Shown here: one piece after another, positions 23,817 through 26,026 of the stretch
Numbering within the stretch: the stretch's first letter is position 1
Layout of the letters: each line of letters opens with the position of its first letter
NCBI GenBank assembly: GCA_944322305.1
Contig: CALUOP010000005.1
Coordinates: 62,001-126,000 of the forward strand
Source of the DNA: an uncultured Coriobacteriaceae bacterium
GTDB taxonomy: Bacteria; Actinomycetota; Coriobacteriia; Coriobacteriales; Coriobacteriaceae
Direction of reading: 5' to 3'
Length of the DNA: 64,000 nucleotides
Made by a program: the position numbers and the translations under genes
Notes under the pieces: model-generated
Database searches by the model: none
The model's input: only the letters and a program-made list of their open reading frames with translations
What the model was told of the DNA's origin: nothing

Positions 23817-24311
23817 ATGCAACACGGCGCGCTGCGCATCGGCCATGGATACGACGTTCACCGCTTGGTAGAGGGGCGCCGCTGCATCATCGGCGGTGTC
23901 GACATCCCGTACGAGAAGGGCCTGCTCGGCCATTCGGACGCCGACGTGCTGGCTCACGCCCTGGCTGACGCCATCTTGGGCGCGTGCCGCGGCGGCGACA
24001 TCGGCAAACTCTTCCCGGACACCGACCCCGCTTACGAGGGCGCGGACTCCCTTGTGCTTCTCGCCCGCGTGATGGAGCATGCGCGCGGCCTCGGCTACGA
24101 GCTGGTGGACGCCGACTGCACCATCGCGTGCCAGGCTCCCAAGATCAGCCCGCACCGCGACGCCATGCGCGCCAACCTGGCTCGCGCGCTCAACGTGCCC
24201 GTGGACGCCGTGGGCGTGAAGGCAACCACCACCGAGAAGCTCGGCTGGGAAGGCGAGGGCCAGGGCATCGGCGCCTGGGCCGTCTGCCTGCTCGAGCGAT
24301 GTAGCAACTAA
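23817..24311 (+). CDS. ispF: 2-C-methyl-D-erythritol 2,4-cyclodiphosphate synthase
   Basis: A 164-residue MEP-pathway cyclase, active as a trimer. Zn ligands Asp13 and His15 (GHGYDVHRL) and His47 (SDADVLAHAL) are present. The C-terminal KATTTEKLGWEGEGQGI motif is intact. The start is the ATG after AAAGGGG; an upstream frame to 23691 is not needed for the fold. It follows ispD after 177 bp. ispE is 13 kb upstream. Confidence 0.94.
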   Translation: MQHGALRIGHGYDVHRLVEGRRCIIGGVDIPYEKGLLGHSDADVLAHALADAILGACRGGDIGKLFPDTDPAYEGADSLVLLARVMEHARGLGYELVDADCTIACQAPKISPHRDAMRANLARALNVPVDAVGVKATTTEKLGWEGEGQGIGAWAVCLLERCSN

Positions 24312-24347
24312 CCCCGTCCCAAGCAGGGTACACCGTCCTTTCCCTTC

Positions 24348-24386
24348 TAAGGAATTTCCCGCGGATTCCTTACCCGACGAACGGGG
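24348..24386 (+). promoter_or_regulatory. Upstream part of the cysS leader, small hairpin
   Basis: TAAGGAAT (24348-24355) pairs perfectly with ATTCCTTA (24365-24372). CCCCGT near 24312 can pair with ACGGGG at 24381-24386 outside it. No T-box specifier or T-box core sequence was found. Confidence 0.5.
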
Positions 24387-24433
24387 CGACGCTGCTTAGA
24401 GACGCGCGCCCGATGATGAGAGATAACCTGTCT

Positions 24434-24553
24434 GGAGGTGTCCATATACGGTCTAGCGCAAGTTCCGCACGCAAAGAAGAACCCAGTGGGCTCTTCGTCT
24501 TGCGCAGGACTGTCCGAAGCGCTGGACCGTATATGGACACCTCCTCGAGGAGG
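24434..24553 (+). promoter_or_regulatory. Long hairpin with alternative RBS-covering stem (candidate cysS switch)
   Basis: 24434-24459 and 24519-24544 form a 26-bp helix with a single U-G pair. The 3' arm ends in CCTCC (24540-24544). That same CCTCC begins CCTCC-TCGA-GGAGG (24540-24553), whose right half is the cysS ribosome binding site. The two stems are mutually exclusive. The 59-nt apical region contains further pairing (GCGCAAG with CTTGCGC). It could instead be a small inverted-repeat mobile element. Confidence 0.7.
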
Positions 24554-24559
24554 CCCACC

Positions 24560-26026
24560 ATGAAGATCTACAACAGCAAAACGCATAAAAAAGAGGAGTT
24601 CCGCCCCATCGAGGAGGGCAAGGTCCGCATGTACGTGTGCGGCCCAACCGTCTACGACAACATCCACATCGGCAACGCGCGCACCTTTATCTCCTTTGAC
24701 GTGATCCGCCGCTGGCTTGTCGCCGCGGGTTACGAGGTCACGTTCGCGCAGAACCTCACCGACGTGGACGACAAGATCATCAACCGCGCTAACGAGCAGG
24801 GACGCACCGCGGCCGAGGTGGCCGAGGAGTTCTCGAGGAAGTTCATCGACATCATGCGTGCCGCCAACGTGATGGACCCGGACGTGCGCCCGCGCGCCAC
24901 CAAGGAGATCGGTCCCATGATCGGCATGATAAAGACGCTGATCGAGGGCGGGTACGCGTACGCGGCCGACAACGGCGACGTGTACTTCTCGGTGAGAAGC
25001 GACCCGTCGTACGGCGAGGTGTCCGGCCGCAAGATCGACGACCTCATGGTGGGCGCGCGCATCGCCGCCGGCGAGGCCAAGCGCGATCCGCTCGACTTTG
25101 CGCTGTGGAAGGCCGCCAAGCCCGGCGAGCCCAGCTGGCCGAGCCCGTGGGGGCAGGGGCGCCCGGGCTGGCACACCGAGTGCGCGGCGATGGTGCACCG
25201 CTACCTGGGGACGCCGATCGACATCCACGGCGGCGGCTCCGACTTGGCCTTCCCGCATCACGAGAACGAGTGCGCCCAGGCCACCTGCGCTTGGCACGAG
25301 GGATTCGCCAACACCTGGATGCACACCGGCATGCTGCTGGTGGACGGCGAGAAGATGTCCAAGAGCCTAGGCAACTTCTTCACGCTCGAGGAGGTGCTGC
25401 GCGATCACAGCGCGGCGGCTTTGCGCCTGCTTATGCTGCAGACGCACTACCGCAGCCCGCTGGACTTCTCGTGGGAGCGCCTGGAGGGCGCCGAGAACTC
25501 GCTGGCGCGCATCGCCGGCACGGTGAAAAACCTTAAGTGGGCGGTGACGCACGCGGAGGGTGCGGCGGACGCCGAGCTGGCGGCGGGACTGGTGAGCGCA
25601 ACCGAGCGCGCCTCCGCCGAGTTCGAGGCGTGCATGAACGACGACTTCAACACCGCCGGCGCGTTGGCGGCATACTTCCAGCTGGTGACCGAGGCCAACA
25701 CCTACCTCGACCAAGCAGGTTCGGCCGTGGACGAGGAGGCGGCGACGGTGTGCGCGGTGTCGATCGCCGGCGCGCTCGCCATCTTGGGCGTCAAGCTGCC
25801 CGAGATCGAAGAGCCGCTGCCCGTGGGGCTGCTCGGCGTGGCCGCGGGCCTGGTTGGTTACACCGGCGATGACGTGGACGAGGCGGCCGAGAAGATCCTC
25901 GCCGCCCGCGCCGAGGCCCGCGCCGCCAAGGACTGGGCGCGTGCCGACGCCATCCGCGACCAGCTGCGCGACATGGGCCTGGCCATCGAGGACACCGCCG
26001 CCGGCAGCCGCATCAAGCACGCGTAA
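24560..26026 (+). CDS. cysS: Cysteinyl-tRNA synthetase
   Basis: A 488-residue class Ia synthetase. The HIGH signature is HIGN (36-39) in YVCGPTVYDNIHIGNART. Cys27 and the CAAMVHR and HHENE regions supply Zn ligands. KMSKS is intact (about 265-269, GEKMSKSLGN). The C-terminal DALR-like helical domain follows, with an insertion rich in Ala/Glu. The start is the ATG seven bases after GAGGAGG; the frame is open further upstream but only through the leader hairpin. It is followed by rlmB and rae1, as in Bacillus subtilis. Confidence 0.96.
   Translation: MKIYNSKTHKKEEFRPIEEGKVRMYVCGPTVYDNIHIGNARTFISFDVIRRWLVAAGYEVTFAQNLTDVDDKIINRANEQGRTAAEVAEEFSRKFIDIMRAANVMDPDVRPRATKEIGPMIGMIKTLIEGGYAYAADNGDVYFSVRSDPSYGEVSGRKIDDLMVGARIAAGEAKRDPLDFALWKAAKPGEPSWPSPWGQGRPGWHTECAAMVHRYLGTPIDIHGGGSDLAFPHHENECAQATCAWHEGFANTWMHTGMLLVDGEKMSKSLGNFFTLEEVLRDHSAAALRLLMLQTHYRSPLDFSWERLEGAENSLARIAGTVKNLKWAVTHAEGAADAELAAGLVSATERASAEFEACMNDDFNTAGALAAYFQLVTEANTYLDQAGSAVDEEAATVCAVSIAGALAILGVKLPEIEEPLPVGLLGVAAGLVGYTGDDVDEAAEKILAARAEARAAKDWARADAIRDQLRDMGLAIEDTAAGSRIKHA

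Follow-up and report, generated by a model that had tools for sequence, protein, structure and literature searches.

Why a long hairpin should stand directly before the gene for cysteinyl-tRNA synthetase, and whether it controls that gene, are the questions raised by one locus of an uncultured Coriobacteriaceae bacterium. The gene, cysS, is an open reading frame at positions 24560..26026 (+ strand, like all features below) of the window, the 64,000-nucleotide stretch of DNA that was analysed, and its orthologue at L056 matches NCBIfam TIGR00435. Upstream of it lies an outer stem, P1, whose 5′ arm (GGAGGTGTCCATATACGGTCTAGCGC, 24434..24459, its outer part locus-specific) pairs with a 3′ arm at 24519..24544, as seen from sequence, fold and comparison. 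A preliminary description had read the leader as a translational switch, and its coordinates and pairings are exact: by direct reading P1 has 26 base pairs (25 Watson-Crick and one wobble) and ends in CCTCC (24540-24544), after which come TCGA (24545..24548), the cysS Shine-Dalgarno sequence GGAGG (24549..24553) and six bases before the ATG at 24560. In the proposed anti-RBS hairpin (24540-24553), whose CCTCC/GGAGG pairing is not conserved, TCGA would form the loop. The description left out both the repetition of the element elsewhere and the structured interior between the P1 arms (24460..24518), a set of internal loops and inner stems which BLAST and a covariance model identify as the conserved part. 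Within it, AGTTC (24461..24465) pairs with GGACT (24507..24511) as P2, recognized by covariation and including an invariant U-G pair; CGCAA (24470..24474) pairs with TTGCG (24500..24504) as P3; and a freely covarying tip hairpin, GAAGAACCC-AGT-GGGCTCTTC (24476..24496), has a single A-C mismatch in the cysS copy.

The fold check that had been proposed bears the hairpin out, since the region 24400-24580 folds at -78.3 kcal/mol against -53.1 (sd 4.1) for shuffled sequences (z -6.2; 0 of 200 as good). In the predicted fold of the cysS leader the Shine-Dalgarno sequence is mostly unpaired (0.66). That the long hairpin is real and evolutionarily kept follows chiefly from comparison, because the same core and stem recur, with compensatory changes, in many genomes.

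A BLAST comparison of the 136-bp region with 100 relatives found its inner 60-70 bases in 47 of them, often at least eight times per genome, and in three Collinsella genomes an exact core pattern, AGTTCCGCACG...GCAGGACTG, gave 24, 18 and 19 matches, against zero when it was read backwards. More than 100 stretches came up in a scan of public genomes, and among the matches listed all were from Collinsella or Coriobacteriaceae. By covariance model, copies are present in 63 of 67 genomes of the family, at 1-40 each. The source genome yields 18 such hits, with at least 15 separate loci read; the single copy suggested there by whole-element BLAST was wrong and reflects the limits of that method. Related elements at no fewer than 15 unrelated loci of the same genome run counter to the idea of a leader belonging to cysS. 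Among 296 genomes of the phylum the model hits fall only in Coriobacteriia, bar two isolated weak ones; other families of the class reach up to 43 hits per genome, with 43 and 31 in a genus of one such family. Two loci of the same class (L299 and L300, family f11) give weak single matches with an insertion (~109 nt) and may be distant homologues. No Rfam family matched the cysS element or the related loci tested, phage records and viral contigs held no match, and the plasmid set held one, in a Collinsella aerofaciens record of 0.9 Mb that is apparently a piece of chromosome. Taken at the level of sequence, these comparisons firmly indicate that the cysS hairpin is one copy of a dispersed, apparently undescribed structured family of Coriobacteriia.

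In each copy an outer stem of roughly 25 bp encloses a conserved core, 57-66 nt long, whose inner stems covary. The covariation score of the aligned copies is 0.337, as opposed to 0.166 when shuffled (0 of 500 as high), and all slid controls are lower, which is the behaviour of a structured RNA or single-stranded DNA element family. (A first, RNAalifold-based covariance model, R1, held 13 pairs only and was superseded by the curated R2.) P2, AGUUC/GGACU, keeps its U-G pair in 41 of 41 copies; the core has an internal loop, CGCA/CA; P3, CGCAA/UUGCG at cysS, is exchanged elsewhere for CGAGC/GCGAG or CGAAC/GUGAG, that is, for tandem G-A pairs; and the 3′ bulge reads UGUCCGA or UGUAGA. The median length of P1 outside C. 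aerofaciens is 26 bp, and within that species P1 reaches 35-57 bp, with its inner 12-13 bp common to subfamilies and its outer part locus-specific yet self-complementary. The cysS leader of one genome (G008, L049) carries a variant core, about 10 nt shorter, whose P3-tip region forms a single uninterrupted stem.

The element precedes cysS in 11 leaders, from the source genome, several Collinsella and one species of a third genus, with a P1 of 24-27 bp. From the ispF stop to the element there are 119-122 nt, and from the element to the ATG 15-17 nt, in the source genome and close Collinsella; in another genus the corresponding distances are 117 nt to the upstream stop and 15 nt to the ATG. Relative to the source genome, 10-17 of the 24-26 outer-stem pairs are changed on both sides. 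Of the compensatory changes envisaged for both stems, those in P1 are present and extend across genera, whereas the CCTCC/RBS stem is not conserved. What the alignments show is a cysS copy that appears to be old and retained in place while the sequence of its stem has turned over. In two sister species (G001 and G002; L036 and L038) the gap between ispF and cysS is short and the element is absent from it, contrary to the expectation that close relatives would all possess it.

The orientation of the copies is strongly polar. Where genes flank the copy on both sides, the median distance to coding sequence, over 107 copies outside C. aerofaciens, is 27 nt from the 3′ end and 138 nt from the 5′ end (p = 2e-13), and over all loci the 3′ end is the one near coding sequence in 91 of 96 clear cases, the 5′ end in 5 (p = 1.6e-21). 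Of these 91, 23 precede a start codon in sense orientation, and 68 follow a stop codon in antisense orientation, at a median of 17.5 nt past it. Gene calls came from a simple predictor, so single distances may be off, and loci common to relatives count only partly as independent; an asymmetry of this size, however, does not hinge on either point. Start-side genes in Coriobacteriaceae are leuS, cysS, thrB, a serA-like gene, leuD, lepA and kdpD, and in other families cysK, trxB, thyX, purH, queA, clpB and others; stop-side genes include valS, gatB, tsaBD, nrdD, a pcrA-like gene and folP. The copies at cysS, leuS, serA, gatB and other sites are common to several genera. In the leuC-leuD gap of the source genome (L256, 1932-2135) two elements stand back to back, one antisense after leuC and one in sense before leuD, and diverging pairs of this kind are also present at L061, L149, L082, L126, L343 and L353. 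At L064 and L122 the neighbours are a tRNA-Ile/Ala cluster and a tRNA-Asp gene, whose promoter regions lie shortly downstream of the copies.

P3 alternates between a Watson-Crick version and tandem G-A versions that pair only on the + strand, and the G-A versions make sense only if that strand is the folded one; the outer stems, read on the same strand, have 67 G-U against 34 A-C oppositions. We infer from these pairings that the + strand folds, as RNA or as single-stranded DNA. A scan for + strand promoters gave no enrichment left of the copies; it is insensitive and says little, because it found none before the start-adjacent copies either.

On balance, and with modest confidence, we favour reading the cysS copy as a member of this family whose + strand is folded and which acts as a fixed hairpin of the leader, not as a switch that masks the ribosome binding site; the preference rests on its having been kept in place through turnover of the stem. 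Folded in this way, the + strand would occupy the larger part of the 5′ leader as a rigid hairpin, stopping just short of the ribosome binding site, which would stay free; the hairpin would be a constant module, serving either mRNA stability or the docking of a core-reading protein. Compensatory change, probably aided by template switching, would renew the complementarity of the outer stem, and copies would spread within and between genomes. While the description of the family as dispersed and structurally conserved is firm, the mechanism is not: 68 of the 91 polar copies lie antisense after a stop codon, with no + strand transcript evident; strains differ in having or lacking entire elements, as a mobile repeat without function would lead one to expect; and the sister species manage without the element at cysS.

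The main rival, which we hold to be possible though clearly less probable, is that the family is a selfish mobile palindromic DNA repeat with no host role, moved as folded single-stranded DNA by an enzyme acting in trans, the cysS copy being a tolerated passenger. Two orthologous C. aerofaciens sites lack the whole palindrome, both arms included, which is the presence and absence expected of a mobile repeat; since both arms are missing, insertion into pre-existing palindromes is disfavoured, and the two empty sites show no clear target duplication. Young subfamilies within genomes (in G003, some two dozen similar copies), intergenic placement and locus-specific outer arms also fit a selfish repeat. 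Against it, the copies at cysS, leuS, serA and gatB are common to genera and keep their pairing as the stem sequence turns over, and no mobilising gene was found: the Y1 transposase domain PF01797 was not detected in G092, G347 and G042 despite their many copies, and none of 10 Y1 genes has a copy in its vicinity. The source genome itself has a single-copy Y1 (RAYT-like) transposase gene (G000:C4:265091-265420, L364), with no element copy beside it. The alternative that the preliminary description had allowed, a small mobile inverted repeat, came closer to the truth in that the element is dispersed, but it did not foresee copies retained in place and strictly oriented. Neither a fixed leader hairpin nor a selfish repeat explains the polarity.

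In many groups of orthologous copies, changes in both arms are at least as frequent as changes in one, and at thrB the stems are 51% identical though the downstream flank is 89% identical. Such both-arm changes would be produced by template switching between the arms (PMC8794818), and strong selection for pairing would produce them as well. Two copies within one 8-kb stretch (L145) have their flanks and the outer 11 bp of P1 in common, while about 10 bp of mid-P1 differ in both arms at once, each copy still being paired. At one C. aerofaciens site (L081, L111, L030, L129, L150) the stems, of ~46-57 bp, are strain-specific in sequence and length and still paired.

The strict polarity, 91 to 5, the short distance past stop codons and the very stable stems would also suit a boundary element that lies at gene edges and blocks or processes transcription there, as a non-canonical terminator or antisense barrier, and that stands before cysS by chance. 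We regard this as unlikely, given that neither strand has a U-run, that for some copies the upstream gene already has a terminator of its own before the element, that 23 copies are in sense leaders, some of them of essential genes, and that the strand richer in G-U is antisense to the adjacent mRNA.

Still harder to sustain is a new type of tRNA- or amino-acid-responsive leader, an idea prompted by the start-adjacent copies of Coriobacteriaceae, which precede leuS, cysS, thrB, the serA-like gene and leuD in positions before the start codon that are conserved in several genera. The same core also lies after stop codons and before kdpD, lepA, thyX, trxB, purH and clpB, a range of neighbours, with many stop-side genes among them, that does not correspond to T-box-type regulation of amino-acid and aminoacyl-tRNA synthetase genes, and amino-acid-dependent variation was seen in no part of the core. 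The earlier remark that no T-box core is visible holds: no Rfam T-box model matched within 24200-24700 up to E 10, nor, at the gathering score, in 11 related loci.

Least probable of all is the switch first proposed, in which the long helix and the CCTCC/GGAGG hairpin would exclude each other and so control cysS translation, for although the anti-RBS hairpin is perfect in the source genome (-7.6 kcal/mol) and a comparable one can form in at least two other cysS leaders (L047, -9.5; L060, -4.9), it is weak or absent in most, the complementarity of matched loci equals that of swapped ones (-5.62 against -5.40 kcal/mol in cysS leaders, -5.43 against -5.26 in 40 start-adjacent copies), the long helix forms first and is favoured (forbidding the outer six P1 pairs worsens the fold of the source leader by 9.6 kcal/mol), and the element also stands at unrelated genes. 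Some anti-RBS complementarity is to be expected, as the 3′ end of P1 is C-rich and Shine-Dalgarno sequences are G-rich. As one copy of a family scattered beside many genes, the hairpin is unlikely to serve cysS alone as an on/off switch. The preliminary description was therefore right about the long conserved stem and the missing T-box, and not about a cysS-specific switch.

A wider proposal, doubtful at present, is that a genome-wide system of folded elements, specific to the class, combines a common recognition core, a private and continually renewed stem and a fixed polarity at coding-sequence edges, with the leuS, cysS, thrB, serA and leuD leaders, among other uses, as the regulon of one core-binding protein. 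Gene regulation is little known in Coriobacteriia, a class common in the gut, and the element, if functional, would mark a large set of their genes with one structural signal. Its locus-specific, always complementary arms are a test bed for how stem pairing is kept up, by selection or by template switching (PMC8794818). There is also a warning in these data: a lone striking leader hairpin may be a copy of a dispersed element, and a genome-wide check should come before it is named a riboswitch.

Among known systems, NEMIS/Correia, ERIC and BOX are dispersed intergenic hairpin repeats with fixed terminal repeats, and the present element is likewise structured, intergenic, gene-adjacent and open to co-transcription. 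We know of no strict 3′-end-to-coding-sequence polarity and no locus-specific arms in those repeats. Intrinsic terminators were considered and rejected, because the flanks have no T-run after the element and no A-run before it, and thus no hairpin with a U-run on either strand. REP and REPIN palindromic repeats are moved by RAYT transposases (PMC3116915). Like them the element is short, intergenic, palindromic, multi-copy and capable of a single-strand hairpin; in REPINs, however, the two REP arms are strongly conserved, whereas in the present family conservation lies in the core and the outer arms differ from locus to locus, and a RAYT link was rejected as no RAYT gene with copies beside it was found in the genomes examined. 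The translational T-boxes of Actinobacteria, which precede ileS (PMC1262725), resemble the cysS copy in being aminoacyl-tRNA synthetase leaders with a hairpin near the Shine-Dalgarno sequence; the element differs in having no Rfam T-box match, no gene specificity and no conserved anti-RBS pairing. Also comparable are the structured RNA motifs from comparative genomics (Weinberg 2010, PMC2864571; the human-microbiome set, PMC8040213). The element differs in matching no Rfam family, and an earlier, unlabelled listing of it in PMC8040213 is conceivable; it is like these motifs in its covarying structure and in having Collinsella among its hosts.
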